24,353 nucleotides of DNA from a virus. Below the pieces are notes generated by a model. It did not search any database. It saw only the letters and a program-made list of their open reading frames with translations, and was not told the DNA's origin. The translations under genes were made by a program, and so were the position numbers. The DNA is taken from the IMG/VR virus record IMGVR_UViG_3300007519_000629, positions 1 to 24,353 of that record; one strand, 5' to 3'. Every line of letters begins with the position of its first letter. Position 1 is the first letter of the stretch. Of this stretch, positions 6,701 through 22,300 are shown piece by piece.

Positions 6701-9700
6701 CCACAAGAAGCATTAGATTACTACGAAAAGAATATAAAGGGCAGAGAATCTTCTGTTAAACCTGTAGATTTAGACAAGCTTAGAGATGAGAATAAGCGTA
6801 AAGAATCAGAGCGTAGAAACACTAAAAAAGATATTCGTATTATTGAAAGGGCGCTTGATTCCGATACACTCGGCCCTGCAGATAGAAAGAATATAGAAGA
6901 AGAACTTAAAAAACTTAAAGAAAATCTTATACAACTTGAAAAAGATCTTGAAGGTAAACCATCTGAAGCAGATCAAGCTCCTACAGTTGCAGAAGATAAC
7001 AAAGACTTTGATGAAGAGCTTAAAAGCGATAAAGAATTTAAAGACCTGCTCGAAGCTCGTAAAGAGATACAGAAGGCAATAGATGAAGCAGATCTTTCTA
7101 AAGATTCTACCCCTGAAGAAAAAAGAGCTCTTCGTGAGGCATATAACGAGTTAACTCGTAGAATCGATGCAATAGTTCTTGGAGACGAAAGAAAGCTTAG
7201 AGACCTAATTGAGAAGCGTCGTAAAGTACAAAAGCAAATTGATGATGCAGATAGCTCGAATAAAGCCACTGCTGAACAAAAGAAAGAACTACGCGATCTT
7301 TACGATAGATTAACTCGTCAAATTGACGCAATAATTCTTGGAGAAGATTCTGAAAAAGAAGAAGGATCCGATGCAGATGCCGCAGTAGATACAGCATTTA
7401 TTGACATCCTCGACGAAGAATCAGATCCAAGAGATGTGGCGTTGGATAGAGTTCTTGACAACATGCGTTCTATGCTAAAGCTTTCTAAAGGAGAAAAGAA
7501 AGATTTAAGAAAACGCAAAAAGCTTCTTCTCAAAATCCTATACAGCACATTTGGTCCTTCAGCTCTTCGTTTAGACAGTAGAGATAGAATAGAAGTTAAG
7601 AATTTTCTTTTCGAGTTAAATAAACTTTCAACTGAAGATCTTGAATATATTGGCAAAGGTGTTAATGAAGAGCTTGGTTGGGAGTTCTTTAGAAACCTTA
7701 AAGAAACTGTGGATCGTCTTGATTCATATATACGATACGAAGGAATCATTACTCGTATTGAATTAGGCGATCCTATTAATCCACAAGGTATAGTTACTCC
7801 CGATAAAACTCAAATTAATGGAACTCCTGAAGTTCAAGAATCTCTCAAAGAATTTACCCCCGACAATACTCTTCACGTTGTCAACTCACTTGGAAAAGAT
7901 CTAAAGGCGGGTGATATTGCATTCCTCCGTGAAGGAGACGAGCTTGTTGAATTTTTTGTAGTTGAGGAAGTTCTTCCAGGAACAGTAATGACTAAGCGAG
8001 CAGATGGAAAACCAGATGTAGAGCAAGTTCAAATTCGTGGATACTATCCAGGACATCAATCGCAAGTTAAGGGTTGGAGTGTTGGTACATCTGTAGAAGC
8101 TATTCGTGGAGAGAAAACAAAAAATATTCCAGCTATGGGAGATAAGCCAGAGATACCAAGTATACCTCTAGGATCACTAAAAGGAAAAGCTTATCAAGAT
8201 AAAAAAGCAGAAATCTCGGCTGTAAGAAAAGAAGCAGGTAAGGTATATACACCTAACTTAAAAGCTACAGATATCCCAGCAGTACTTGTGGCAAAGCCTA
8301 ACTCTTTTGCTAGTGGCTCACGTCCAGCATTTTTTGGAAAAGCTGCAGAACTTGCAAACCTTAAAGATGGAAAAGCAATCTCGGATGCACTCAAAGGTAA
8401 GAGAGTTGTTTTCTTTGACTTTGAAACAATTGGAACTGGGAAGTTTGATAGTGATAATCCAGATGCTCCTATTCAGGTTGCAGCATCTGTATTTGAAGGA
8501 GGAGAAAAAGTTGGGGAGATCAACTTATTCATTAATCCTAGAGAAGCACTAGGTAAGTTCTACTATATAGATGAAGATCCTTCTAAGGGATTAGACCCAG
8601 CAAAACTTCTTACAAGTGATGGAACTCCAGTAGATGATGCATTCTTAGCATCTCAGCCATCTATCGAGGAACAACTTCGCAAGTTTGCAGAGTTTGCTGG
8701 ACAAGATGCAATTTTTGTTGCACATAATGCAGAGTTCGATACTAATACTTTTGAGAAGTGGGCAAAGAAGTTTGGTATTGATTACAACATGGATGGTGTA
8801 ATTGATACTCTAGAACTAGCAAAGAGCATGACACCTAAGGGTAATAAGCTAGGTCAAGTTGCTAAGCGTTATGGAATTGAAAAGACAGATGAAGAATGGC
8901 ACGATGCCAGAACTGACTCTGAGGTACTTCCACAAATCTTAGAAGGCTTGCTTGCAGATATGAAGCCTGATAATAAAGAATTTGACAATGCTACTCGCCT
9001 TGCTGAGTTTGAAGCTAAGCGTTCTTCATACAATGAAAAGATGGAAGCATTTAAGAAGCAAGAAGCAGAACTAGTCACTGCAGAGGCTGTAAAGCGTGGA
9101 ATGTCTGGCGAGCAAGTATCTATTGACGAGATGCTTGGAAAAGATAAAACAACCTCTGGCTTTGGCTCAGAAGGAAGTACAGACTCTGCAGAAGAGTATG
9201 CACTTGACTCTATCTTTGGCGAAAAGATTAATAACTCTTGGATTGAAGACGACGAGAATACATTTATCGTTGATGAAGGTGGCGCAACTGTTGGAGACAT
9301 CAAGATTGGTGACTTTGTACCTGCTGAAGGCGGCGGATACCATGAAGTTATAGATCTCCAACAAGATCCAGAAGATCCAAATGGAACTATTGTTGTTCGC
9401 AGAATTGTTGCTACTGGCGAGTTTTACAGTACTAGAGTAAAAGAGAAGAAGTCTCCAGGTATTGGCTGGTCTAATGGTCAAATTCTTAAAGGAACCTTGC
9501 GTCGTCGCAACGGACTATCTGGAAAGACAGCTGCAGAAATTAAAGATCTTGCATCTAAGCCAGTAGTAGTTGCTCCAGAACCTAAGACAAAAGAAAAGAC
9601 TCCTACACCTAAGGGTAAGAAGTCAATAACTCCAGAAGAAACACAGAGTGTTGTATCGGATGCTATCGAAACAATTACTTCTGGTTCTAAGTCAGATGCA

Positions 9701-12700
9701 ACTGTTAAGGAAGCTGTAAAGGCTCTTCCAGTTGATGACACGGTTAAGAGTCTTGTTCTTGCAGATCGCCCAGATGCGTCAATCAATCATCTTTCAGCAA
9801 GTGGTGTTGCTCTTAAGGTAGGAGATGAAGTAAGAGGAGTTAAGACTGGACGTATCGGTACTGTTAGGGCACTTATTACATCTTACGGATCTCGTGGATA
9901 TAAGAATTATGTCAAGGTTAAGTTTAATGGAACAGAGAAGCGTGAAAACATTTCTGCTGGTTCACTAGAAAGTATTAATCCAGATGATGGCAGTGGATTC
10001 TTTGCAGATCCAACTCCTCCTAAAGCTGGAGAGACATTAGATCCAAATACTAGCCCTAAATCTAAAGAAGATTTAGCTTCACTGTTAGACGGAAAAGTTC
10101 CAGAAGGTCAGCCTACAGTTGAAATTCCTGAAGAGCCAGTAGTACCTGATAGAGAAAAAGCTATTGCTTACTATAAAGAAAAAGAAGTAGAGAGAATGAA
10201 ATATGCTCTTGAACTTAACTATCGTCAAGTAAGTCCTGAAGCACTTCAATCACTTACAGCTGCTGTTTCTGATATCTCTAAATTTGAAAAAGGTCATACA
10301 AGATCATTTACTTCATTTATGCCAAACCTTTCAACAGGAGAGCCTTTAGAAAGATCATTTACTTTTGTAAAGCCAAGTAAAGAAGATCTTAAATACCATG
10401 AGTATTTAGAAGAAGACGATATTATTGTAAAAACTGGACCAGTAAATACTGCAGCTGTTATTAAATCAGACGGAAAGATTCTTTATTTAGAGAATCCAAA
10501 TGTTCCAAATTGGAAACTTAGTGTCGTATCTCCAGATTTAAATACTGCTTTAGAAAATAAAAATGCAGTAAATCTGCCTTTAGGGGAAAATCCTGATCTT
10601 CCAAATTTGGGAATGATTTCATTTAATCAAGAGTTTCTTGGAGAAGTATCTGGAAGTCCAGACGAGACACCAGATCCAGATTTTGTTGTAGATAGCCCTG
10701 ATGCAGCACCAAAGGGAATTAAGCCAACTAAACAACAGCAAGCAGTAATTGACGCTATAGTTTCTGGCAAAGATGTGATTGTTCAAGCTCTTGCTGGTAC
10801 AGGTAAAACTAGCACGTTAAAGATGGCTGCAAAAGCTATTGCAGAAAAAGATCCAGATAAAACTATTCTTTACATTGCATTTAATAAGGCTGTAGCTGCA
10901 GAACTTAATGCAGATCCAGATCGTCCATCGAATATGGTTGCAAGAACTAACACACAGGTAGCTTGGCATCACTCACCTGCTTGGATGCAAAAACGCAGCT
11001 TCGATAAGACATCTATATTTTCTCCAACAGAGGTAGCTGATCATCTTGGAGTAGGACCAGTTAAAGTTACAGAAGTTAAAAAAGATGGAACAAAAGCAGA
11101 TGCAACGCTTTCAAGCAGAGAAGTAGTTGCTGTTGTTCGTCAGGCAGTAACAGCATTTGCACAGAGCGCAGATGAAAAGATTATGCCTCGGCACTTTACA
11201 GATAACTTTGTAGATATTCCTGAAGTATTTATTGATTATGCTAATCGTTGGTGGGATGATATATCAAGCCCTAAAGGTAAATTAGCAATGAATCAATCTT
11301 TTCCAGAGAAGTACGTTCAGTTAAATGGCATCGATGTAACAATGTCACCAAATGAAGGAGGTTTAAACCCTAATACAAGAATTCCTGCAGCAGACATTAT
11401 CTTCTTTGATGAGGCACAAGATATCAATGACGTTGCTGGCGACTGGGTTCGTAAGCAAAAAGTACAAAAAGTATTTGTTGGAGATGGTAATCAGTCAATC
11501 TATGGATTTCGTGGAGCTAAAGATCAGCTAGATACACTCGAGGGAGCAGATAAGCTTCAAATCACAGAGTCATTCCGCTTTGGCCCAAACATTGCAGCAC
11601 CTGCAAACCGTTTTTTAGCTGTTGCTGGAAAATCAGAAAAAATTGTTGGAGCTGGTAAAGATCAAGGTGAGCTTGTAGAAGGAATGGAAGATCCAGATGC
11701 CGTTCTTGTTCGCACTAATGGTGGTGGATTTAAAGCAATGCTTGAATATCTTGAGCAGGACAAAGTTGTAGGAATTAGTCAATCAACTAAAGCAAGACTA
11801 GAAGAAGTTATTGAAACAACAAGCTGGCTTATGGGTGGTAAGAAAGGCTCAAAACCAGCTAAATACAATGCAGAAATTGGAATGTACGATTCTTGGGAAG
11901 AACTCTCTACTGCGGTGCGAGAAGGAAAAGCTCGTCCAGTTAAAGCTTTCTATGATCTAGTCACACAAAACGGTATGCAGAGCATTCGTGACATCTTAGA
12001 TCGTGTTGTTGTAGAACGTGAAGAAACTGCTGAAAGTAAGCTTGCTCTTACAAAATATAAGCCGCTTACTTTAGATCTTGTAGAAGATGGCTCTACTGGA
12101 AAACTTGATAAAGACACAACATATAAAATTGAAGGCGACGATGTTGTTCTTACTGGATTCTTTAAGTTTAACAATGAAAAACTAAAAGAAGCTGGATTTA
12201 AAGCAAGAAAAGGTATAGATGGCAATTGGGCAAAAGACAGACGTATAACTATAGAAGATAATCTAAACAAGGTTGATAAACTCAATCAACTAAAAAAAAT
12301 TCTTGAAGGTGTTATTGAGCCAGTTAAGGCAGATGTTGTTATTACCACTGCACATCAGTCAAAGGGTCTGCAATGGAACAAGGTTCGCATTTACGATGAC
12401 TTCTGGGGTCCAAAGTTTAATAAGGAAACTGGCGATATTGATATGCCAGCACCAGAAGAATTACGTCTTGCATATGTTGCAGTTACTCGTGCTCAGAAGC
12501 AATTAGATCTTGGCCCACTTACATGGGTTAATGACTACACCACGGAAGAAGATGAACAAGCTATTTCATCATCTTTTAATGTGGAAGCAATGTCAAATAT
12601 TAATACTGACCCAACACCAGTAACTCCAGAAGAGTTTGATAATGAGGTACAAGAGACTGCTAAGAAAGCAGACCCAGCCACACAAAGGATTGCAGATGCC

Positions 12701-14380
12701 ATTATTGCTGCACTCGAAGCTGGAACAGCACCTTGGCGCAAACCATGGGCTGGTGGGGGGGTTATGCCAACTAGTGTTGCAACTGGGAAAATGTATGAGG
12801 GGTCAAACATCCTCTCTCTCTGGGCTGCTCAGGCAGCAAATGGCTGGGCAGATAACCGCTGGCTTACATACAAGCAAGCGGAAAAACTTGGCGGAAATAT
12901 TAAGCGTGGAGAAAAAGCAACCTCAATTATTCACTGGACTCCAAAGTTTAAAGATGTAAAGCAGCCAAATGGAACTACTGAAAAAGTATTTGTTTACACT
13001 CCACCAAAAATTATTAATGTATTTAACGTAGAGCAAGCAGAGGGAGTTAATCTTCCTCCACTTGTTAAGGGTGAACCAGTTCCAGTAGGTCAAGGAGAGC
13101 AAGCTATTCTTGATGCATATAAGGACCGACCAGAGATCTTCTACAAGTCTCAAGACAGTGCCTATTACTCACCTATAACAGACACAATTCATCTCCCACT
13201 GCGTGAACAGTTTGGGACAGAGCAAGATATATTTGAAACTCTTGTTCATGAACTTGCACACAGCACAGGTCACACATCTCGTGTAAATCGTAAAGATCTT
13301 ACAGATAACTATGGAACTCATAGAGAAAGCCGTGGAGAAGAAGAACTTATTGCAGAGATATCTGTTGCAATTGCGGCAGCACGTCTTGGCGTTGAGATTG
13401 ACTTTGGGAACGTTGCATCATACGCAAAGTCATGGCTTGGATCTCTTAAGAACGATCCAACAATGATCATCAAGGCAGCCAAGCAAGCACAAAAGGCTGT
13501 TGATCACATGCTAGGAAAGCAAGAAGAACCAGCAAAGTTTGATGAAGAAGGAAACCCTGTCGAACCTGTTGGCGAAGGTGTTGGAAGCGAAGGTAAGACT
13601 GGCGATCAGATTGCAGAAGATGCAGGTCTAAAGCCAGAACCAACTCCTGAACCTAATGTAGGAGAGCAGGGTAAAACTGGGGAAGAGATTGCTCGAGAAG
13701 ATGATATAAAACCTGCTGGTACAAAAGGCGGACATAATCTTAGCCCTAGAGAAGTATTTAACAAACAGTCGGTCCGTAGCGATGTAGATATTAAAAAAGT
13801 ATACGGTGCAGAAGATGTACATCAGCCTCAATTGCAAAGAGACGTGAAACAACCTGTTGCCCCTAAACGTGAAGATTTTCAAGATAGAGATTCTTATGTA
13901 GCAGCTTATAAAAAATACTCTAAAGAGTATGATGACATGTATCGTGAAAGCTCAAGAAATATTCAATCTTCAATAGGAGAAAAAAATTTAGACGGGTCTC
14001 AAAAAGGTGTTCAAAATTATGTAAAAGATGTAATAACTGCTGATTGGTTTGTAGAAACCTTTGGTGACGGAGGACAGATGGGAAGACCTCCAGTCAGTCT
14101 GATAACTAGTAAAAAAGCAGGTGGTAAATATATTTATGGCTTTAAAAATGGTGTATACAAATCAGCATTAAAAATTAACAGCCTTTTATCAAAAAGTGAG
14201 CCATCTATCCTTCACGAGATCGCTCATTTTGCTACAGCAATTAGCGTGGGAGAGGGATTTGATGCTCATGGTGTAGAATATAGAATGAATTATATTTTTA
14301 TTACTAATAAAGTACTTGGTCGTGAATCTGCAGAAAGTCTTAAAGAAGCTTACAGAAAGGCAAATTTAAATGTCGGATGA
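3761..14380 (+). CDS. Giant polyvalent protein: exonuclease, helicase, ArdC, metallopeptidase
   Basis: One uninterrupted 10.6-kb frame encodes about 3539 residues. ATG 3761 is preferred over TTG 3758 because it forms a TGATG overlap with the previous gene and GAGG lies seven bases upstream. Order (numbering from 3758): N-terminal region with D-L-L-P-x-x-H-P and S-M-T-A-S-A (115-119); R-D-R-K-G-R-F and a probable small beta-barrel (198-270); long acidic, Pro/Glu/Lys-rich linkers with small islands; coiled coil and a 53-residue tandem repeat (about 1000-1200); DEDDh exonuclease (about 1545-1730); two probable KOW/SH3-like barrels (about 1830-1910 and 2010-2070); SF1 helicase (about 2320-2920); ArdC module (about 2972-3252); C-terminal HExxH metallopeptidase (about 3390-3540). 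This matches the polyvalent proteins of phages and conjugative elements, thought to enter the recipient cell with the DNA. Its place between portal and capsid genes supports packaging in the virion, as for phage P1 DarB. The packaging is inference. Confidence 0.85.
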   Translation: MSSKKKIVLYSAERVFSSRQQARIIRDEAVAMLETANEFSSTSRRVGKRSAFKVIARSLESTRGLPFSIRKHKAITELSNYISLAKHNKINGLVAFNTDLLPISHPKSTRPSSMTASAILESQMLWVTDDPRITDPEAKALIASAMMSHPDSPEHIYSMKRIELLPQGTVPLEALVASYGDGNSRAAKSARAKLQRRDRKGRFAEMFGTFKVILGLRDGGRASATGRILGQNIFSPDLLDMELSDGRIAAIPISQGEQPKAMLDDTSDEARKSGFVRVSGANYDAKAPVVPEDNLTFIDAPSGFRLDKDYKGAGKKYTDEAFDVVIYDKPSKDTRDVIDNAIKRSRERDLADPKQVKLGEDGKIWDENRKLFSVTRRDEQTPFVFSQNWNDSIEEIARIEKIDDSQERFGQGEDEENSPLADQLKGKPKKAKARIADEGAKTSEGFKYNVPEGSIELDPDFDYVPEGTEDDPSRLAETYDKSELMDGLVDGLEPVNATTPAVGLGRLSQDDKDEDLEVPVEAILSALKEQGSDGKSALAEAYDKINKNKENQNALKDSRKGEKKAKAAEPKDIADVFPEVATEPAKPEEEAPIEEPTEDIISEQTELSLAEKLDQMPALESLSKEEKQSIIDDNNNYSKYLPKNENVAMPEGMYQPKESTEKDRTDAIDLASSLGENLTKEDLTDNLEDAIKNEGTAEFLSSDENGESSEVFISAEALRDALALRGEDANKIIKDIAERNTPATKEPTPEEKPAKEKKKKAKKEEPAAPPTPPTEPPAEDPAAEEEKPKKTTNYKRVGNRTLIRAGKGKPFSDKEVKDFLTENGFVFSDTVERDGRTIPVKAETAIQTDEEFKAFMRELRDRFGIELEPRKETAFSPAQEPIDFDAPEPGKPVVEEVPTPAEEEKPTPSTKPLPSGPKITEDKSKIPNELPDILPEGWTKDANRIAKNDDGSLLLLIDQSGNKYWVLVADGLGTGKAFNSPQEALDYYEKNIKGRESSVKPVDLDKLRDENKRKESERRNTKKDIRIIERALDSDTLGPADRKNIEEELKKLKENLIQLEKDLEGKPSEADQAPTVAEDNKDFDEELKSDKEFKDLLEARKEIQKAIDEADLSKDSTPEEKRALREAYNELTRRIDAIVLGDERKLRDLIEKRRKVQKQIDDADSSNKATAEQKKELRDLYDRLTRQIDAIILGEDSEKEEGSDADAAVDTAFIDILDEESDPRDVALDRVLDNMRSMLKLSKGEKKDLRKRKKLLLKILYSTFGPSALRLDSRDRIEVKNFLFELNKLSTEDLEYIGKGVNEELGWEFFRNLKETVDRLDSYIRYEGIITRIELGDPINPQGIVTPDKTQINGTPEVQESLKEFTPDNTLHVVNSLGKDLKAGDIAFLREGDELVEFFVVEEVLPGTVMTKRADGKPDVEQVQIRGYYPGHQSQVKGWSVGTSVEAIRGEKTKNIPAMGDKPEIPSIPLGSLKGKAYQDKKAEISAVRKEAGKVYTPNLKATDIPAVLVAKPNSFASGSRPAFFGKAAELANLKDGKAISDALKGKRVVFFDFETIGTGKFDSDNPDAPIQVAASVFEGGEKVGEINLFINPREALGKFYYIDEDPSKGLDPAKLLTSDGTPVDDAFLASQPSIEEQLRKFAEFAGQDAIFVAHNAEFDTNTFEKWAKKFGIDYNMDGVIDTLELAKSMTPKGNKLGQVAKRYGIEKTDEEWHDARTDSEVLPQILEGLLADMKPDNKEFDNATRLAEFEAKRSSYNEKMEAFKKQEAELVTAEAVKRGMSGEQVSIDEMLGKDKTTSGFGSEGSTDSAEEYALDSIFGEKINNSWIEDDENTFIVDEGGATVGDIKIGDFVPAEGGGYHEVIDLQQDPEDPNGTIVVRRIVATGEFYSTRVKEKKSPGIGWSNGQILKGTLRRRNGLSGKTAAEIKDLASKPVVVAPEPKTKEKTPTPKGKKSITPEETQSVVSDAIETITSGSKSDATVKEAVKALPVDDTVKSLVLADRPDASINHLSASGVALKVGDEVRGVKTGRIGTVRALITSYGSRGYKNYVKVKFNGTEKRENISAGSLESINPDDGSGFFADPTPPKAGETLDPNTSPKSKEDLASLLDGKVPEGQPTVEIPEEPVVPDREKAIAYYKEKEVERMKYALELNYRQVSPEALQSLTAAVSDISKFEKGHTRSFTSFMPNLSTGEPLERSFTFVKPSKEDLKYHEYLEEDDIIVKTGPVNTAAVIKSDGKILYLENPNVPNWKLSVVSPDLNTALENKNAVNLPLGENPDLPNLGMISFNQEFLGEVSGSPDETPDPDFVVDSPDAAPKGIKPTKQQQAVIDAIVSGKDVIVQALAGTGKTSTLKMAAKAIAEKDPDKTILYIAFNKAVAAELNADPDRPSNMVARTNTQVAWHHSPAWMQKRSFDKTSIFSPTEVADHLGVGPVKVTEVKKDGTKADATLSSREVVAVVRQAVTAFAQSADEKIMPRHFTDNFVDIPEVFIDYANRWWDDISSPKGKLAMNQSFPEKYVQLNGIDVTMSPNEGGLNPNTRIPAADIIFFDEAQDINDVAGDWVRKQKVQKVFVGDGNQSIYGFRGAKDQLDTLEGADKLQITESFRFGPNIAAPANRFLAVAGKSEKIVGAGKDQGELVEGMEDPDAVLVRTNGGGFKAMLEYLEQDKVVGISQSTKARLEEVIETTSWLMGGKKGSKPAKYNAEIGMYDSWEELSTAVREGKARPVKAFYDLVTQNGMQSIRDILDRVVVEREETAESKLALTKYKPLTLDLVEDGSTGKLDKDTTYKIEGDDVVLTGFFKFNNEKLKEAGFKARKGIDGNWAKDRRITIEDNLNKVDKLNQLKKILEGVIEPVKADVVITTAHQSKGLQWNKVRIYDDFWGPKFNKETGDIDMPAPEELRLAYVAVTRAQKQLDLGPLTWVNDYTTEEDEQAISSSFNVEAMSNINTDPTPVTPEEFDNEVQETAKKADPATQRIADAIIAALEAGTAPWRKPWAGGGVMPTSVATGKMYEGSNILSLWAAQAANGWADNRWLTYKQAEKLGGNIKRGEKATSIIHWTPKFKDVKQPNGTTEKVFVYTPPKIINVFNVEQAEGVNLPPLVKGEPVPVGQGEQAILDAYKDRPEIFYKSQDSAYYSPITDTIHLPLREQFGTEQDIFETLVHELAHSTGHTSRVNRKDLTDNYGTHRESRGEEELIAEISVAIAAARLGVEIDFGNVASYAKSWLGSLKNDPTMIIKAAKQAQKAVDHMLGKQEEPAKFDEEGNPVEPVGEGVGSEGKTGDQIAEDAGLKPEPTPEPNVGEQGKTGEEIAREDDIKPAGTKGGHNLSPREVFNKQSVRSDVDIKKVYGAEDVHQPQLQRDVKQPVAPKREDFQDRDSYVAAYKKYSKEYDDMYRESSRNIQSSIGEKNLDGSQKGVQNYVKDVITADWFVETFGDGGQMGRPPVSLITSKKAGGKYIYGFKNGVYKSALKINSLLSKSEPSILHEIAHFATAISVGEGFDAHGVEYRMNYIFITNKVLGRESAESLKEAYRKANLNVG
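7043..7348 (+). repeat. Tandem 53-residue repeat inside the polyvalent protein
   Basis: Two copies (about 7043-7189 and 7202-7348) align without gaps at a 159-base period. About 26 of 49 compared residues are identical, and both copies end in R-I/Q-I-D-A-I-(V/I)-L-G. The units are charged and helical, with a heptad-like pattern of E/K/R and L/I, and probably form a helical hairpin or coiled coil. The DNA copies have diverged more than the protein copies, so this is an old duplication. Confidence 0.85.
8396..8965 (+). other. DEDDh 3'-5' exonuclease domain (DnaQ-like) within the polyvalent protein
   Basis: All metal ligands of the DnaQ-like DEDDh family are visible: Asp1554 and Glu1556 in F-F-D-F-E-T, Asp1661 in A-H-N-A-E-F-D, and His1715 with Asp1720 in H-D-A-R-T-D. 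The domain is about 190 residues, normal for the family, and should remove nucleotides from 3' ends. A roughly 40-residue insertion lies between the first and second motifs. No polymerase is attached, so it is not simply a proofreading domain in cis. Numbering is from 3758. Confidence 0.9.
10712..12525 (+). other. UvrD/Fbh1-like SF1 helicase domain within the polyvalent protein
   Basis: The SF1 motifs are present in order: P-T-K-Q-Q-Q-A-V-I (Q-motif), A-L-A-G-T-G-K-T (Walker A, Lys2350), F-F-D-E-A-Q-D (Walker B, Asp2551 Glu2552), V-G-D-G-N-Q-S-I-Y-G-F-R-G-A (III), E-S-F-R-F-G (IV), T-T-A-H-Q-S-K-G-L-Q-W (V) and Y-V-A-V-T-R-A-Q (VI, Arg2911). The Y-I-A-F-N-K-A-V-A-A-E motif Ia is like that of the Fbh1 group. 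The enzyme should be ATP-dependent and move 3'-5' on single-stranded DNA. With the exonuclease in the same chain, a role in resecting or repairing DNA ends is plausible but not shown. Confidence 0.9.
12671..13515 (+). other. ArdC antirestriction module (ssDNA-binding plus zincin) within the polyvalent protein
   Basis: The segment starts with A-D-A-I-I-A-A-L-E-A-G-T-A-P-W-R-K-P-W and continues with W-L-T-Y-K-Q-A and the I-K-R-G-E-K-A-T motif, the ArdC N-terminal single-strand-binding domain (DUF1738). It is followed by a zincin domain with H-E-L-A-H (His3164, Glu3165, His3168) and the E-E-L-I-A-E-I motif. ArdC from conjugative plasmids protects incoming DNA from restriction. The zinc ligands look intact, so peptidase activity is possible. 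Confidence 0.9.
13920..14377 (+). other. Second metallopeptidase-like domain (TIGR04338-like) at the C-terminus of the polyvalent protein
   Basis: The last 150 residues contain H-E-I-A-H (His3486, Glu3487, His3490), and His3504 in D-A-H-G-V-E-Y thirteen residues later as the likely third ligand. The pattern of helix, W-F-V-E-T-F-G, strand, L-H-E-I-A-H and H-G-x-E-Y resembles the TIGR04338 family of putative metallohydrolases of actinobacteria and their phages. The substrate is unknown. This zincin is distinct from the ArdC one. Confidence 0.7.
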
Positions 14381-14486
14381 TTACGAGTATGAAATTGTTG
14401 ATCCTTTAGGTCCTGACTACAGCCCAGAGCCTTCTGAAGAAGTTCTTACAGAAGAAGAACAAGAAGAAGAAGAAGAGACGGTATAA
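14370..14486 (+). CDS. Tiny acidic protein (38 residues)
   Basis: A 38-codon ORF starts with ATG 14370, overlaps the end of the polyvalent gene by eleven bases, and ends three bases before the next ATG. AGAAAGG lies about ten bases upstream. The product is strongly acidic, ending in a run of Glu residues (E-E-E-Q-E-E-E-E-E), and has no Cys or hydrophobic segment. It resembles no family I know. Overlap, Shine-Dalgarno and tight packing support translation, but its small size keeps this tentative. Confidence 0.5.
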   Translation: MSDDYEYEIVDPLGPDYSPEPSEEVLTEEEQEEEEETV

Positions 14487-14488
14487 TA

Positions 14489-14614
14489 ATGGCTAAGTCT
14501 GATAAAGAGCGGTACAACGAGGCTGTCGTTGCTGCTTATCGTAAGATTATTGAGTTAGCAGAAGTTGACCCTAATGCTGACTCCTATGAGCCTGAGGATG
14601 AGGAAGTGCTGTGA
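14489..14614 (+). CDS. Small acidic protein (41 residues)
   Basis: This 41-codon ORF begins two bases after the previous stop and overlaps the following GTG start by four bases (GTGA). The N-terminal half (K-E-R-Y-N-E-A-V-V-A-A-Y-R-K-I-I-E-L-A) would form an amphipathic helix, and the C-terminal half is acidic. No family is recognised. The four-base overlap is the best evidence that it is a real coupled gene. No strong Shine-Dalgarno is visible before its ATG, so it may depend on ribosomes ending the previous ORF. Confidence 0.5.
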   Translation: MAKSDKERYNEAVVAAYRKIIELAEVDPNADSYEPEDEEVL

Positions 14615-15327
14615 GACTCTCTAATGCTAAAACCTATCCCACTGAGGGAATGTCGTTAATTTATGCCAACGGAGAGAATGTTGTCTATCAAGCAATTTTT
14701 TACACAGAAAACTATGGAACATTTACAAGAGTAGATGGTAAGTGGCTTGCTCTAGCTTCAGATGATACTAGTTTAGAAAATCTTTCTATTATGGATATTA
14801 CTCCTGCTGATTACAAAGTAGTTACAGATATGTTTGATACGGCACAAAAAACTAAAACATATCTAAAATATGATCAGGTAAAAAATTACGAAGTTGCATA
14901 TTCTTTTGAAGAAAAAAATAGATCAATGACAGCAGCAGTTGAGACTTCAGAAGGATGTCCTCCTGCAACTTCAGATATTGCACTTAACCTCGCCAATCGT
15001 GAGAATGCAATTAAGACTGCAGGATACGGACCAATGAATCCAGCACTGCCAAATAATAAGTTTTGGCAAGCAAAAACAGAGCGTTGGTCTGTGACAGTTG
15101 AAGAAGCTAAAACATCACGCTGCGGCAACTGCGCTGTCTTTATTCAAACCCCAAAGATGCTTGATTGCATTGCTTCTGGCCTAGGTAACGAGTCAGGAAA
15201 TGACGCTTGGGGCTCAATAGAGGCTGGCGATCTAGGGTATTGTGAAGCGTTCGACTTTAAATGTGCATCATCTAGAACTTGCGACGCTTGGGTTGCTGGC
15301 GGGCCAGTTACAGAGGAGTCTAAGTAA
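14611..15327 (+). CDS. Phage protein with C-terminal six-cysteine cluster
   Basis: This 238-residue protein has an N-terminal beta-rich domain (about 1-100), then R-S-M-T-A-A (104-109, a recurring motif of the cluster), then a segment with D-I-A-L-N-L-A-N-R and Y-G-P-M-N-P, and finally a cysteine module: C171-x2-C174-x11-C186-x24-C211-x6-C218-x5-C224, ending C-D-A-W-V-A-G-G-P. I recall the C-G-N-C ... G-Y-C ... F-K-C ... T-C-D-A-W pattern from many phage head-cluster proteins. The spacing suggests a zinc or iron-sulfur site. GTG 14611 is chosen because of GAGGAA about five bases upstream and the four-base overlap; ATG 14650 lacks a well-spaced site. The stop overlaps the next ATG by one base. 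The function is unknown; a structural or maturation role is inferred from position. Confidence 0.65.
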   Translation: MRLSNAKTYPTEGMSLIYANGENVVYQAIFYTENYGTFTRVDGKWLALASDDTSLENLSIMDITPADYKVVTDMFDTAQKTKTYLKYDQVKNYEVAYSFEEKNRSMTAAVETSEGCPPATSDIALNLANRENAIKTAGYGPMNPALPNNKFWQAKTERWSVTVEEAKTSRCGNCAVFIQTPKMLDCIASGLGNESGNDAWGSIEAGDLGYCEAFDFKCASSRTCDAWVAGGPVTEESK

Positions 15328-18300
15328 TGGAATACATGGGCCGTATTGAGTCTAGAGTTCTATTTACTGACGATGGTCAAGGTGCTGTTATCGATGAGCT
15401 AACTAATCTTGTAGTTGCGTTAGACACAAAAGAGACTCTTCTTGCTGCTGCCCAATGGGACTTAGATCTTGAGCGCCATAACGATACTTCAGTAGAACTT
15501 GCTAACGCTGCTCTGACTAATCTTGATATCAAAGTATTTTCAAATAATGACCGTATGTACACCATCCCTGACTCAGTTGTTGCTGAGGCAAAGCGCGGAC
15601 TTGAGTGGCGAAAAGAAGAAGATCGTGGCGGTACATCTGTCGGTGTTAATAGCGCCCGAACACTTGCTCGTGGTGGTCAGGTTGGTATTAAAAAAGTTCG
15701 TCATATTGCTAAATACTTTCCTCGTCATCAGGTAGATAAAAAAGGAACTGGTTATAAGCCGGGAGAAAAAAATTACCCATCTAATGGCCGTATCGCTTGG
15801 GCTCTTTGGGGTGGAGATGCAGCAGAGCGTTGGGCATCTGCAATTGTAGAGCGTGAAAATAAGAAAGATAAATCTAATTCAGTGATGACTGCAGGACTTG
15901 ATCCTATGAATTATGAAATGCCAAAGAAAGTCAATTACGATTCTTTTATAACTACAAAAACTATGCCAGAAGATAATGTCATAGAATTTTTTATTCGTGT
16001 TCGCTTAGACGGTTCTGGTATTGATCGTCTCTATCGCATTGAACCAGAAGGTCAGATTTATGTTTGGGACGATGGCGACTGGGATGACATGGGCATGCCA
16101 GATTATGACATGTTAATGTACGACAATATTTTAGATATGAATCAAGAAACTGTTCCTTGTGGTCACATTCCTGTGGATACAGATACAGCTCTTCTTATTG
16201 CCGCACTTCTAGATAATGAACCATTTATTGCACATAAACTTGAAAAAGTTAACCCAGAAGAAACTCAAATGTTTACAGAAGCATCACCGGGGATGGATTG
16301 GGGTCTTCTAGACGAACTAGCACTTCCAGATGAGATGTCCGATTCTTGGGACTTCTTTGACGATAGCCTTACAGCCGCTGGAGAACCTGCCGCAACTGAT
16401 GGAAACTATACCCCCGATGAGCGCTCAAAAAATACAGAATCACAGTTGCGTGATAAAACAGGTAAATTTGCAAAGATGGGTGGCCGTGTAGTTATTGCTG
16501 GTCGTCCTCAATATCAAGGAAATATTCGTGCAATTAATCCTGATTCAGGTACAGTAAAAATTCAATTAGATAATGGAAATACAGTTGATCTTGCAGCAAA
16601 TCTCACAGAACCTTTAGAGTCATACACTCCTATTCCTGATGCAGTTGCTAGCGATAGTCTTGATACTTCTGGAATTCTTGGTGAGCCTCGTACTCCCATG
16701 GATTCTCCTGTCCGTATGCCGGGAACACTTCCTCCACTTAACGCAGCAAATTTAAATACAATGCTTACAAACTATCCTCAATGGGTAGCCGACCAAAGAC
16801 TTTCCGCTGATGTTGCAGGAAGTCAACCCCAGTCGGGTGAGCAAGCTAAACCAGCTACACGCTCTGCTAATCCTTTAGCAAAGTATTACCCACAGGTAGC
16901 TAAAGGTGCAGAAATGAAAGCAGTGAATGCTTACAATGTTGCAAACCTTAAATCATGGCTAGCAGCGGATACAACTGGAAGACGATCTGCTCCACCATTT
17001 ATGAACCCTGCAGATAATAAAAAATTTGTAGAAGATAAAGGTGCAAACAGTCCTTGGCTAGATAAAAAAGGTAAAGCCCTTAAAGCATCTGCAGAAGACA
17101 CGCCTTTAACACCAGAAACTTCTGATGTTGCCATTATTCACATGGCTGTAGTTTCACCAGATGACCCTCAGGCAGTAATGGATTTAGTTGCGTTACATCC
17201 AAAGACTAAAAATACAATTCAGCCTACAACTTTTGTTAGAAAAGAAGGCAAGTGGGTTCACGATCCTCAGATGCTAATGGATCTTCGTAGTGCAACTCCA
17301 CCACCTGTAATTGTTTTAGATGATAAAAATCTTTTAGATGTTTTAGAGCAAGTTGACGAGAATAAACAATCTATGACTGCCGCTGGTGGCGCAGATCGTA
17401 ATCGTGGAAACGCAGAAAAGCTTCGTCGCTATTGGACTTACGGCAAGGGTGGAGCAAAGATTCGTTGGAAGACTCCCGGAGATTGGACTCGTTGCTACAA
17501 GCAACTTGCCAAATATATGGGTCCTCGTGCCAAGGGTTATTGCGCCCTTCGCCACAAAGAGATGAATGGCTATTGGCCAGGAGATAAAAAAAATCGTGAG
17601 ATGGGTTCATTTACTGTAGATACTTTGCGTAATTATGACGAACTTCTGAGCACTTTTGCTCTCCGTGCAAAAGCAGCAGATGCTCGTTCTAGAGTTTTAC
17701 TTGCTGGAGCAGATGTGGAAGAGCAACAAGGATCAGAATTTTTTATTCCTTTAGTAATCCCAGAAGGACTTGAATCTGGAGATGGTCGTGTCATGGAAAA
17801 AGGCGCTCTTAGTATGCGTGAACTTCCACTTCCATTATTGTGGCAAATCCAGACTGGAGAAGGTCATAACGGCTCCGTTGTTGTTGGAAAGATTGTTCAG
17901 ATGGAGCGCACAGACCAAGGAATTGGTAATGCTCGTGGCTTCTTTGATAAAGGAGAATACGGACAAGAAGCTGAGCGTTTAGTGCGCGGTGGCTTTATTC
18001 GTGGAGTTTCAGCTGATTTAGATCAATTTGAAGCTGATGAAGAAGTGCCAGAGGCTAAAGAAGGATCTGACACTAAGATAGAAAGCGGTAAAATAAAGAT
18101 CAAGAAAGCACGAGTCATGGCTGTGACTTTAGTGCCAAAGCCAGCTTTTCAAGAATGCACAATTAAACTCGCTGAAGAGCTCGGCGTTGAGGAGGAAGAA
18201 AAAGTGAACATCCCTGACGGCGTTTATGTCGAAGAAATAAATGCACTAGATGCTTCGGCTCTAGTTGCTTGTGGAATGATTGCTGGAGCAATCCCAGTAA

Positions 18301-20054
18301 CACCCCCTACAGAGTGGTTTGATAACCCCAAGCTAAGTGGACCGACCCCACTAACTGTTGATGATGATGGTCGCGTTTTTGGTCATATTGCTGCATGGCA
18401 TGTTGATCACATTGGTCTGAGTATGGGAACAAAGCCACCTCGCAGCCGAAGTGGTTATGCATATTTTCACACAGGAGTAATTCGTACAACTAGCGGAAAA
18501 GATGTTGCTGTTGGTCAACTAACTCTTGCAGGCGGTCACGCTGGAATGGAAGCGTCTGCTGCTGAAGCAGTTCGTCATTATGACGACACAGCATCTGCAA
18601 TTGCAGATGTTCATGCAGGAGAAGATGCTTATGGAATTTGGGTAGCAGGATCTCTTCGTTCAGGATCATCCCCAGAACAAGTTCGTGCACTCCGTGCCTC
18701 AGCACCTTCAGGTGATTGGCGCCCAATTAAGAATTCATTAGAACTTGTTGCAGTTTGTCAAGTCAATGTTCCCGGATTTCCAATTGCTCGTGCTCGTGTT
18801 GCATCTGGAACAGTTATGGCACTTGTCGCCGCTGGCGCACAGGTTCTTGCTCAGATGAAGGTAGATCCTCTCTCCGAGCTTAGCCAAAGACTTGAAGCTT
18901 TAGAGAATCCTCAAAAGATGGCACTTGTCGCATCGGCTGCATCTGCTCGTGCTCGTGTTCAAGAATTTCAAAATGAACAGCTCAGTACAAAAAAAGCACT
19001 TGTAGCATCTAAAGTTGCAAAGATGAAAGCAGATACAGAGCTTGATTCAGATTATATGAATCAACTATTTGACGAAGATCCAGAGCAAGAAATGGCTGTA
19101 ATCACTCGTCGTGTTCGTGAGCGTTTAGCAAAAGAAGGCAAAGCACTTGCAGATGGTTCATACCCTATCCGTAATGCTTTAGACCTAAAGAACGCTATTC
19201 AAGCATATGGTCGCGCAAAGCCGGGAAGTCGTGGCAAGGTAAAGCGTCATATTGTGAAGCGTGCCATCGGTCTTAACCGTGAAGAGCTAATCCCAGAAAA
19301 TTGGAAGGGTGCTGCAGCAGATCTTGATAATATTGTTGCCTCGATGAAAGCAAGTGCTAAAGTTGCTTTTGCAATGATTTCAAGCAATTCTGAAGCAGTT
19401 TTTTCACAGTCAGAATTTTCCGAAGCAGAAGAAGAAAAAGTCATTGCAGATCTTACCGACGAAGAAATTGAAGTTCTCAGACAAGAAGCAAAGACTCGTA
19501 AGGATCAGGAAAATGATGGTATTTCTAGAGATGAAGATGGCCGTATTAAATACACCCCTGAAACTCAGCCTCGTGATGCCTCTGGAAAGTTCCGTCAAGT
19601 TCTAGCTCGTATTAAGCAGAACTTAGGAAACTCTGGTCTTCAGAATGTTCTTGAGAAAATAAAAGAAGCAGAAAACTTTGATAGCACTGGAAACTATGCT
19701 GGAGCAGCTAAAGCAGCAGCAGATTTACTCGGGATTATTGATCGATTGGACTCTGGAGCGTTAAATTCTGACGCTTTAGAAAATGTCCGTACTAGTGCTG
19801 CCGAGCTTGGAAAGGTTATCGCTAACCTCCCATTTGCCTTCGGTGAAGATGCAGAGAAGATTCGCTTCTCCGATATCCCACCTGCTCTGAAAGACCTTAT
19901 GAAAGACATGATTACTCGTGTAGAAGACAAGATTGGCAAGGAAGATGCCGATATTGCTACCGCTGACCTTAGAAACTTTATGTCTGGCGGGGACTACTAC
20001 AATCAATCTGAGGTCTCATCCCAAATGGCTAAGCTCCTTCGCTTACTTACATAA
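15327..20054 (+). CDS. HK97-type prohead protease embedded in a 1575-residue fusion protein
   Basis: The protease core is at about residues 797-950: a strand-rich start, His847 in G-H-N-G-S-V-V-V-G, Ser895 in R-G-V-S-A-D-L-D, and a closing V-M-A-V-T-L-V-P-K-P-A-F. This is the layout of caudovirus serine proteases that mature the capsid. Before it: a R-G-G-T-S-V-G ... W-A-L-W-G-G-D-A-A-E-R-W module (about 95-170), V-M-T-A-G-L (186-191), an acidic region, S-L-T-A-A-G (347-352), R-D-K-T-G-K-F plus a small barrel (375-425), S-M-T-A-A-G-G (682-688), and a Y-W-T-Y-G-K-G-G module (about 700-755). After it: the domain usual in actinophage proteases (about 990-1170, with G-P-T-P-L-T-V and A-G-E-D-A-Y-G-I-W-V-A-G), a D-G-S-Y-P-I-R-N module (about 1260-1330, DUF6582-like), R-D-A-S-G-K-F (1416) and a helical C-terminus that could scaffold. 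GAGGAG lies eight bases before ATG 15327. Confidence 0.85.
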   Translation: MEYMGRIESRVLFTDDGQGAVIDELTNLVVALDTKETLLAAAQWDLDLERHNDTSVELANAALTNLDIKVFSNNDRMYTIPDSVVAEAKRGLEWRKEEDRGGTSVGVNSARTLARGGQVGIKKVRHIAKYFPRHQVDKKGTGYKPGEKNYPSNGRIAWALWGGDAAERWASAIVERENKKDKSNSVMTAGLDPMNYEMPKKVNYDSFITTKTMPEDNVIEFFIRVRLDGSGIDRLYRIEPEGQIYVWDDGDWDDMGMPDYDMLMYDNILDMNQETVPCGHIPVDTDTALLIAALLDNEPFIAHKLEKVNPEETQMFTEASPGMDWGLLDELALPDEMSDSWDFFDDSLTAAGEPAATDGNYTPDERSKNTESQLRDKTGKFAKMGGRVVIAGRPQYQGNIRAINPDSGTVKIQLDNGNTVDLAANLTEPLESYTPIPDAVASDSLDTSGILGEPRTPMDSPVRMPGTLPPLNAANLNTMLTNYPQWVADQRLSADVAGSQPQSGEQAKPATRSANPLAKYYPQVAKGAEMKAVNAYNVANLKSWLAADTTGRRSAPPFMNPADNKKFVEDKGANSPWLDKKGKALKASAEDTPLTPETSDVAIIHMAVVSPDDPQAVMDLVALHPKTKNTIQPTTFVRKEGKWVHDPQMLMDLRSATPPPVIVLDDKNLLDVLEQVDENKQSMTAAGGADRNRGNAEKLRRYWTYGKGGAKIRWKTPGDWTRCYKQLAKYMGPRAKGYCALRHKEMNGYWPGDKKNREMGSFTVDTLRNYDELLSTFALRAKAADARSRVLLAGADVEEQQGSEFFIPLVIPEGLESGDGRVMEKGALSMRELPLPLLWQIQTGEGHNGSVVVGKIVQMERTDQGIGNARGFFDKGEYGQEAERLVRGGFIRGVSADLDQFEADEEVPEAKEGSDTKIESGKIKIKKARVMAVTLVPKPAFQECTIKLAEELGVEEEEKVNIPDGVYVEEINALDASALVACGMIAGAIPVTPPTEWFDNPKLSGPTPLTVDDDGRVFGHIAAWHVDHIGLSMGTKPPRSRSGYAYFHTGVIRTTSGKDVAVGQLTLAGGHAGMEASAAEAVRHYDDTASAIADVHAGEDAYGIWVAGSLRSGSSPEQVRALRASAPSGDWRPIKNSLELVAVCQVNVPGFPIARARVASGTVMALVAAGAQVLAQMKVDPLSELSQRLEALENPQKMALVASAASARARVQEFQNEQLSTKKALVASKVAKMKADTELDSDYMNQLFDEDPEQEMAVITRRVRERLAKEGKALADGSYPIRNALDLKNAIQAYGRAKPGSRGKVKRHIVKRAIGLNREELIPENWKGAAADLDNIVASMKASAKVAFAMISSNSEAVFSQSEFSEAEEEKVIADLTDEEIEVLRQEAKTRKDQENDGISRDEDGRIKYTPETQPRDASGKFRQVLARIKQNLGNSGLQNVLEKIKEAENFDSTGNYAGAAKAAADLLGIIDRLDSGALNSDALENVRTSAAELGKVIANLPFAFGEDAEKIRFSDIPPALKDLMKDMITRVEDKIGKEDADIATADLRNFMSGGDYYNQSEVSSQMAKLLRLLT

Positions 20055-20104
20055 ATATTAAATAATCGTACAGATAAACATATAAAAAATAATGTATAGT
20101 ATTA
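20055..20104 (+). promoter_or_regulatory. A+T-rich possible promoter region before the capsid gene
   Basis: The first 50 bases of the only long intergenic gap are almost pure A+T. They end in TATAGT (20095-20100), a fair match to a -10 box. No convincing -35 box is visible about 17 bases upstream. A start near 20107 would put the structured leader at the 5' end of the transcript. Weakly supported. Confidence 0.35.
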
Positions 20105-20221
20105 CTCAGGTGGAGTGCCTCCACGCATCTAATGCGTCTGTGAGTCCCTCGGCCCTAACTGATAAGCGAGACAAGAAGTCTTATACATTCTTGTCGTAAC
20201 TGGCCCAGAGGAGGGACAGTA
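20105..20221 (+). ncRNA. Structured 5' leader of the major capsid gene
   Basis: Four stems can be drawn by hand. Stem 1: GTGGAG 20110-20115 with CTCCAC 20119-20124 (3-base loop). Stem 2: GCAT 20125-20128 with ATGC 20132-20135. Stem 3: GTCCCTC 20144-20150 with GAGGGAC 20211-20217, extended after an internal loop by GGCC 20151-20154 with GGCC 20202-20205. Inside stem 3 is stem 4: GACAAGAA 20170-20177 with TTCTTGTC 20188-20195. The 3' side of stem 3 holds part of the Shine-Dalgarno (AGGAGG 20209-20214), so folding would hide the ribosome site of the capsid gene. ATAAG 20162-20166 can also pair with CTTAT 20180-20184 as an alternative. No U-run follows, so it does not look like a terminator. It could tune or autoregulate capsid translation. 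Confidence 0.6.
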
Positions 20222-22300
20222 ATGGATCAAATCAAAGACATGATCGATCAGCTGGCTGATATTAGCGACGAACAAGTCGCCGATCTCCAGAATAAGATCA
20301 TTAAGGAATTTGAATCTGTTGAGAAGGAAGACCCTACTCCGCAATCAGTTGATGCGATGTCGTCATTAGCCGACATGCTTGACACCGTTCGTGGTGAATT
20401 CAAGCGACGCGAGGCCGCGATTCAAGAGCTCGCAACGCGAGCAGCAGATGCAGCCTCTCGTGTTTACGGTGAAGACACAGGAAAAGACATGGAGTCTGAT
20501 TCCTCAGAGGAAAAGAAAGAAGAAATGCCAGAAGAAGCAGAAGAGATGGCGATGGATATGCCAGCTAAAGATGCTGAAGATGATATGCCTTCTGAAGAAG
20601 TTCCAGTAGCCGAAGCTCCTATGGCAGAAGAAATGCCTGTAGCAGAAGAAGCACCTACTCCAGAGATGGAAGAGGAAAAGAAAAAGGAAGAGGAAAAAAT
20701 GTCTGAAGCGTCAATTGATGCAAGTAAGGTCGTCGAACTCTCGACGGAAACAAATGAAGTTGTTACCGAAACAGCTGCCGCTGTAGAAGTAGCCGCTGTT
20801 GTTGCAGATGGTGCAGATGCATCAGAAGCAGAAGCAGCACCTGCAGAAGCAACGCCTGTTGCTGAAGCAGTTGTAACAGAAGCAGAAGCAGTAGTTGAAG
20901 ATTCAGCAGTCGCTGTTGATTCAGAAGCAGCAGTAGCTGAAGTTACAGAAGATGCAGAAGCATCAATCAAAACCAAAACTGAGCCAAAGGCTCAAGAAAT
21001 TATGGAGGCACCTGTGACCGCCGCTGGAGATGATCTCAATATTGAGGTCCCTGCTGACCGTCGCCCTGTTGCACAGGCATCTGTAGCTCCCGTGGCAATT
21101 ACTGCGGGTGCTGACATTCCTGGTTACACCGCTGGCAGCTCAATGAACGACATGTACGATGTCGCATCAGCGTTCGAAAAGCGTATTCACGCTCTTCGCC
21201 GCGTAAATGGTGGAGATGGAGAGCAGCACATTGTTGCATCTGTCGCCACTCAGTACCCAGAAGCTCGCACTCTTACAACAGATGCAGAAGCTAACTGGGC
21301 AAAGGTTCAGGCCGTTACTGGTCCTGAAGCACTCGTCGCATCTGGTGGACACTCAGCACCATTCGAAGTTAAGTACGACATCTTCGGACTTGGTACTACA
21401 TCTCGTCCACTTCGTGACGCACTACCAAAATTCCAAGCAGACCGTGGCGGTATCCGCTTCGTAACTCCACCAGTACTTAGCTCATACGCTAACGCTGTTG
21501 GTGTATGGACCGCAGCAAATGACTCAGCAGAAACACCAAACCCAGCTGCAAAGCTTAGCTTGACTGTAACAGCTGCATCAGAGCTAACTGTCGCAACTGA
21601 TGCTGTAACACTACAGCTACAGTTTGGTAACTTGATGTCTCGTGCATACCCAGAATTGATCGCTCGTCACAATGAGCTTGGTCTAATTCAGCATGCTCGT
21701 GAAGCAGAAGGACAGATTCTAACCCGTCTAACTGCTCTTTCAACAGCAGTTACATCCACTTCACTTATCGGTGTAGCCCGTGACTTCCTAGTACAGCTAG
21801 GTCGCGCAGCAGCTAATTACCGTGGCCGTCATCGCCTAGAGGCAGATGCTCCACTCCGTGTCATTGCTCCATACTGGATCAAGGACGCAATGGTTGCAGA
21901 TCTTGCAATTTCAGCACCAGGAGACAGCACTCTAAACGCAACAACAGAGATTGATGGATATATTGCATCTCGCAATATCAACATCAGTTACCACATCGAT
22001 GATTTCACCGATGCACAGAATGTCGGTGCAATGAACGAGTTTGGAGATACATTCGTATGGTACATGTTCGCTGAAGGAACATTCTTGTTCCTAGATGGCG
22101 GTACATTGGATCTCGGTGTTATCCGTGACTCAACTCTCGTTGGTACAAACGACTACAAGATGTTCGTTGAAACCTTCGAAGGCGTTGCAAAGATTGGCGT
22201 TGAATCACTCAAGGTCACATCAACCATCTCTGTTAACGGTGTAGCAGCAGCTCTCCGCGATACAACTGGTGGCGCATCAGCTGCGGTTATCGAATACTAA
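20222..22300 (+). CDS. Major capsid protein with long acidic N-terminal (delta/scaffold) region
   Basis: This 692-residue protein has a C-terminal part (about 300-692) that reads like an HK97-fold capsid protein of actinobacterial phages: A-I-T-A-G-A-D-I-P-G-Y (292-302), an extended-loop region around F-E-V-K-Y-D-I-F-G-L, a G-G-I-R-F-V-T-P-P segment, the A-P-L-R-V-I-A-P-Y-W-I spine region, and a C-terminal beta domain. The first 290 residues are different: a charged helical segment (about 1-90), then a Glu/Ala/Met/Pro/Val-rich low-complexity stretch to about 255, then P-V-T-A-A-G-D (264-270). Such N-terminal regions act as built-in scaffolds and are removed by the prohead protease, here encoded just upstream. 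Cutting near 266-270 would leave about 425 residues, a normal size. A strong AGGAGG sits seven bases before ATG 20222. A second well-placed Shine-Dalgarno before ATG 20699 may allow an internal start. Confidence 0.85.
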   Translation: MDQIKDMIDQLADISDEQVADLQNKIIKEFESVEKEDPTPQSVDAMSSLADMLDTVRGEFKRREAAIQELATRAADAASRVYGEDTGKDMESDSSEEKKEEMPEEAEEMAMDMPAKDAEDDMPSEEVPVAEAPMAEEMPVAEEAPTPEMEEEKKKEEEKMSEASIDASKVVELSTETNEVVTETAAAVEVAAVVADGADASEAEAAPAEATPVAEAVVTEAEAVVEDSAVAVDSEAAVAEVTEDAEASIKTKTEPKAQEIMEAPVTAAGDDLNIEVPADRRPVAQASVAPVAITAGADIPGYTAGSSMNDMYDVASAFEKRIHALRRVNGGDGEQHIVASVATQYPEARTLTTDAEANWAKVQAVTGPEALVASGGHSAPFEVKYDIFGLGTTSRPLRDALPKFQADRGGIRFVTPPVLSSYANAVGVWTAANDSAETPNPAAKLSLTVTAASELTVATDAVTLQLQFGNLMSRAYPELIARHNELGLIQHAREAEGQILTRLTALSTAVTSTSLIGVARDFLVQLGRAAANYRGRHRLEADAPLRVIAPYWIKDAMVADLAISAPGDSTLNATTEIDGYIASRNINISYHIDDFTDAQNVGAMNEFGDTFVWYMFAEGTFLFLDGGTLDLGVIRDSTLVGTNDYKMFVETFEGVAKIGVESLKVTSTISVNGVAAALRDTTGGASAAVIEY
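20686..20701 (+). promoter_or_regulatory. Possible internal ribosome binding site and start within the capsid gene
   Basis: GGAAGAGG at 20686-20693 lies five bases before an in-frame ATG at 20699 (Met160). Starting there would give a 533-residue protein lacking the helical part of the N-terminal region. The purine-rich context also encodes a run of Glu/Lys, so it could arise from amino acid composition alone. Confidence 0.3.

Follow-up and report, generated by a model that had tools for sequence, protein, structure and literature searches.

The coat protein of the RNA phage MS2 represses the replicase gene of that phage, and Mu-gpT-DE RNA, an Rfam entry, is a candidate RNA found close to a phage head gene. 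Phage T4 has autogenous translational operators in the mRNA of genes 32 and 43 (PMC3014915). Bacterial mRNAs are stabilised by stem-loops at the 5' end, and RppH requires the 5' nucleotides to be unpaired (PMC3997798). The DNA analysed here is a stretch of 24,353 nt from the IMG/VR virus record IMGVR_UViG_3300007519_000629 (the window), in which positions 20108-20221 are best explained, with a probability of about 0.72, as a conserved RNA leader that acts in cis on translation of the capsid mRNA -- a 5' hairpin (P0) would shield the end of the message, a second hairpin (P4) would gate the ribosome, and an internal loop is a candidate factor site. The parts of the leader and the capsid ORF lie on the + strand.

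The gene under control is that of the major capsid protein (MCP), a 692 aa ORF at 20222-22300 (phrog_777 major head protein, E 4.6e-83; matched in 734 phage records) which starts in the window with ATG 20222. It is preceded by a structural fusion ORF containing the protease (15327-20054) and then by 167 nt without a long forward ORF (20055-20221), so that the leader at 20108-20221 has the maturation-protease gene on one side and the MCP gene on the other. The initial annotation had described this as the only long noncoding gap, but by the ORF listing a further gap with no forward ORF, at 14381-14610, is longer (230 nt). Other features of the window include a giant ORF at 3758-14380, placed between portal and protease, whose 3540 aa product has an ArdC N-terminal domain along with zincin metallopeptidase, RNase T exonuclease and UvrD helicase domains and resembles a polyvalent protein, possibly injected, and a ferritin-like (Dps-like) gene inside the head-gene cluster at 2104-2568 (PF00210, E 7e-13). 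The N-terminal ~250 residues of the MCP itself (20222-21000) are rich in Glu and Ala, and may form a fused scaffold-like domain. Judging from the relatives of the window's phage, its host would be an actinobacterium.

Homologous loci were collected by scanning IMG/VR with three MCPs, reaching MCPs down to about 55% identity. The leader lies directly 5' of the MCP in all of the IMG/VR loci that have the MCP N-terminus, over an MCP identity range of 55-100%; it is also found in DSL-LC01, a metagenome-assembled phage of Dishui Lake (PMC10611076), and more divergent versions occur in the isolated Microbacterium phages Pumpernickel, Big4, Cece and A3Wally. A covariance model, R1, built from 69 homologous leaders with Big4, Cece and A3Wally left out, matches 94 of 94 leaders at E<=2e-5, including those three. 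Of 20 large phage records, 18 carry exactly one R1 copy and one contig carries two; R1 misses Zooman, where the leader is too divergent for it and can be recognised by eye only. Each copy is located directly 5' of an MCP. The contig with two copies carries two MCP genes, with one leader in front of each. (This 160.7-kb contig, from which L183 also comes, with leaders L494 at 835-949 and L495 before two different MCP genes, is either a chimera or represents two phages.) A DNA-pattern scan that was blind to the MCP gave 29 R1 matches, and the ORF starting at the end of the match was an MCP homolog in every one of them. When cellular genomes were scanned by DNA pattern, at least 117 stretches came up; 22 were run against R1, none scored below E 0.016, and no cellular copy was seen among these.

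Farther out, the leaders of the Arthrobacter phages Atuin and Mimi and of the Gordonia phages GMA2, Sixama and Phendrix gave no R1 match even at E 10. Those of the Gordonia phages resemble the window leader by pattern only (GAGCGCC-hairpin-GGUACCUC, shorter), and even this pattern is absent from Streptomyces phage phiSAJS1 and Gordonia phage PinkCoffee. Atuin and Mimi (L084, L253) have an AAG-hairpin-CUU leader just 5' of the MCP and are perhaps very distant relatives. Sequence analysis shows the leader to be a conserved structured RNA tied only to the MCP gene.

The 5' domain is built on P0, in which AGGUGGAG (20108-20115) pairs with CUCRGCCU; RNAalifold recovered this pairing, and the whole 5' domain, unaided from a plain alignment. 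Inside P0 lies the internal loop YGCC/RUCC, made up of two isolated G-C pairs with pyrimidine mismatches between them. Its 5' side occupies 20116-20119, where GCC is invariant and the first base is T/C in A2; it is also present in the Microbacterium phages and takes the form GAGCGCC in the Gordonia phages. Its 3' side, GUCC, forms a single segment with the P0 3' arm, CUCGGCC(C)U, at 20144-20156; here GTCCCT is invariant in A2 and AUCCC is found in the Microbacterium group, and the CCCUC of this segment is also complementary to the Shine-Dalgarno (SD) sequence. The GAG:CUY part of P0 is paired in 76 of 77 homologs, and the pair adjoining it has switched from G-C to A-U on three independent occasions, both bases changing (p 0.007, against a null in which changes are placed randomly on the tree). 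Arm lengths match as well, with 5' arms that are one base shorter accompanying 3' arms of the shorter type; the outer pairs, AGGU:RCCU, show no double changes among the homologs. The loop encloses P1 (20120-20143; ACGCAU-CUA-AUGCGU in the window), a variable hairpin whose 81 distinct sequences have a mean energy of -4.9 kcal/mol versus -2.0 when shuffled, 39 of them individually at p<0.05. The initial annotation had seen this stem as GCAT/ATGC; it is present, but at 6 bp (ACGCAT/ATGCGT) rather than the 4 bp given there.

A single-stranded and moderately conserved hinge, AACUGAUAAGCGA (20157-20169), leads to hairpin P3, GACAAGAA / UUCUUGUC (20170-20195). P3 is almost free in sequence, yet when all 5995 column pairs were tested against a tree-based null, five pairs of this hairpin reached significance (E<=0.025), with a sixth at E 0.06. 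The alignment used was fitted to R1 and hence leans towards the model, so P3 was retested without any alignment: the hairpins have a mean energy of -10.4 kcal/mol, versus -4.7 for shuffled sequences and -4.6 for hairpins recombined from halves of different phages. A plain MAFFT alignment, not fitted to structure, gave no significant covarying pair (best E 0.43) because P1 and P3 are misregistered in it, which is why the model-fitted alignment and the arm-swap test were relied on. The 8-bp stem that had been picked out from the single sequence is this P3, and the five covarying pairs and the arm-swap test show it to be sound. The motif GAUAAGC precedes P3 in the main group of leaders, and the DSL-LC01 group (leaders L044, L059 and L082) has it within the loop of P3.

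The last hairpin, P4 (20199-20220), reads ACUG-G-CCC [AGAGGA] GGG-A-CAGU in the window and ACUG-n-NCC [loop with AGGA] GGN-n-CAGU as a consensus over the homologs, and its 3' arm stops just 5' of the window's start codon. The SD, GAGGAGG (20208-20214), is divided between the loop of P4 and its 3' arm. P4 forms in every homolog shown, with a mean of -8.9 kcal/mol and a range of -5.4 to -11.4, and its N:N' pair in the 94 leaders is C-G in 56, U-A in 16, G-U in 10 and A-U in 1, being unpaired in 11 (covariation p 0.009). In most relatives it covers the GU of a GUG start in addition to part of the SD, while in the window an inserted TA shifts the start just beyond it. By sequence analysis, P4 is thus a hairpin that encloses the SD and nucleotides at the start codon, and a structured element over the ribosome site, such as marks an autogenous translational operator, is present.

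The view of the initial annotation that the capsid gene has a structured, conserved 5' UTR is supported by this conservation and covariation; it had looked to a lack of covariation in homologous leaders as the observation that would tell against it, and P0, P3 and P4 all covary. Its other stems also occur in the sequence -- GTGGAG/CTCCAC (6 bp), GTCCCTC/GAGGGAC with GGCC/GGCC (7+4 bp), GACAAGAA/TTCTTGTC (8 bp) and ATAAG/CTTAT -- though with different fates in the family. It was right in placing the SD in a stem, which is the local covarying hairpin P4, but the 7-bp GUCCCUC/GAGGGAC stem that it chose is not kept family-wide: it is complete in 44 of 77 non-redundant leaders, and lacks compensatory support because its 5' strand is invariant and its 3' strand varies. 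The ATAAG/CTTAT pairing, proposed to open the 8-bp stem, has a counterpart in only 3 of the 35 homologs with the hinge motif. As conserved elements, the GUGGAG/CUCCAC hairpin (complete in 37/77 homologs) and the GGCC/GGCC inner stem (both halves in 23/77) were rejected, as was a hammerhead-like reading of CUGAUNAGCGA, to which no cleavage core fits. Taken singly, the fold of 20090-20240 is modestly better than chance (z -1.85, with 8 of 200 shuffles as good); it is the conservation and covariation in homologs that place the leader structure above chance.

The promoter-like A+T box noticed earlier just upstream also has counterparts among the homologs. It is a putative -10 box, TATAGT (20095-20100), 7 nt before the first base of the leader, and TANNNT stands at the same distance from P0 in 66% of 88 homologs, and in some others it is displaced by a single base; position -1 is T/C in 86 of the 88, and +1 is a purine. 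In the Gordonia group, TACTGT was read by eye 7-8 nt 5' of GAGCGCC. There is no -35 match, and a scan with the sigma-70 consensus found nothing. The conserved box and the pyrimidine/purine step at a fixed distance lead to the prediction that transcription starts at 20108, the first base pair of P0. No intrinsic terminator, as expected of a transcription attenuator, was found within 19900-20300, which argues for translational over transcriptional control.

Compensatory base changes and a fixed place beside one gene, the marks of a cis-acting structured RNA leader, are both found here, and because the conserved fold hides the MCP ribosome site the leader very probably controls the amount of capsid protein made. 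With transcription from 20108, the 5' end of the mRNA would coincide with the outermost pair of P0 and would thereby be shielded from 5'-dependent decay. P4 would limit ribosome access until opened, and the invariant YGCC/RUCC loop may be the site at which a factor acting in trans, a phage protein being the likeliest, or else a tertiary contact decides whether the ribosome site opens. The internal loop is also compatible with a riboswitch; the location beside a phage structural gene does not point to any metabolite.

A point against this reading is that a strong hairpin at the ribosome site would be a strange choice for the most abundant protein in the absence of regulation. Against the combination of P0 and P4 stands the minimum-energy fold of the window, which favours pairing of the SD with GUCCCUC (-40.2 vs -36.0 kcal/mol). 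This raises the possibility, tentative at best, of a two-state switch, in which CCCUC is either held by P0 or paired with the SD (GUCCCUC/GAGGGAC), closing the gene, with the 5' arm GGUGGAG as an SD mimic. Both states need the same strand and their energies are close (means of -36.6 vs -34.9 kcal/mol), P0 being better in 55 of 93 leaders and the SD stem in 38, and in Gordonia relatives CCUC(C) also faces the SD, with an extra pairing ACCUCC/GGAGGU; such competition for CCCUC makes a switch possible in the main group. The incomplete 7-bp stem (just 44/77) weighs against it, as do the 37 of 94 leaders in which the base after GG has become A, U or C while its proposed partner remains C, and an SD stem clearly weaker than P0 in leaders of the L066, L070, L110 and Cece types. 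A more elaborate version, that the YGCC/RUCC loop senses free capsid protein or the state of assembly and trades the 5' hairpin for the SD stem, is doubtful, though if true it would tie capsid synthesis to shell assembly in actinobacterial phages.

The MCP itself is a plausible trans factor for the loop. That it (or the protease) binds the leader and the MCP represses its own synthesis once shells stop growing draws on the strict linkage of the leader to the MCP gene and, by analogy, on the SD held in a hairpin as in the T4 gene 32 and gene 43 operators (PMC3014915), but other phage or host factors fit equally well and this specific form of control is rather unlikely. Somewhat less so, while still not favoured, is a role chiefly as an mRNA stabiliser, the blunt 5'-terminal hairpin blocking 5'-end-dependent decay and P3 and P4 tuning translation constitutively; the predicted transcription start at the first P0 pair suits this, as do the stabilising action of 5' stem-loops on bacterial mRNAs and the unpaired nucleotides that RppH requires (PMC3997798), yet a simple clamp would have no need of an invariant internal loop and a hinge. 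The long invariant strings could also reflect conservation of the DNA, as a protein or packaging site with fortuitous hairpins, but the compensatory changes in P0, P3 and P4 make this highly improbable.

Neither the window nor 14 homologous loci gave a match to Rfam 15 at the gathering threshold, and a permissive search gave two chance-level hits only (17.5 bits where the threshold is 99, and 11.2 where it is 70). This agrees with the earlier suggestion of a possibly undescribed RNA class. No description of such a leader was found in the literature searched, a body that takes in few subscription papers. The leader family, its architecture and its link to a capsid gene thus appear undescribed, though the cis-regulatory phage mRNA leader is already known as a kind. 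What is added is a compact family of RNAs without an Rfam entry, found before the capsid gene both in abundant freshwater actinobacterial phages and in Microbacterium isolates. Through it, the way in which large tailed phages adjust the amount of capsid protein at the translational level becomes open to testing, and the cultivable phages Pumpernickel, Big4, Cece and A3Wally permit direct tests.

Like Mu-gpT-DE RNA, the leader is a putative structured RNA associated with head genes of phages, but it matches no Rfam family at gathering score or as a credible weak hit. As in the MS2 coat-protein operator, a hairpin holds the SD and the start region, but the loop and bulge sequences differ and the MS2 target is the replicase gene. 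With the T4 gene 32 and 43 operators it shares a structured mRNA element located 5' of, and extending into, the ribosome site for a phage protein made in large amounts (PMC3014915); here the gene is that of the capsid, sequence and architecture are unrelated, and the operator function is putative. Finally, as in 5'-terminal stabilising hairpins of the ompA/papA type, the predicted transcript has its 5' end at the base of a hairpin (PMC3997798); a stabilising role is putative here, and the leader differs from them in having an invariant internal loop and an additional hairpin at the SD.
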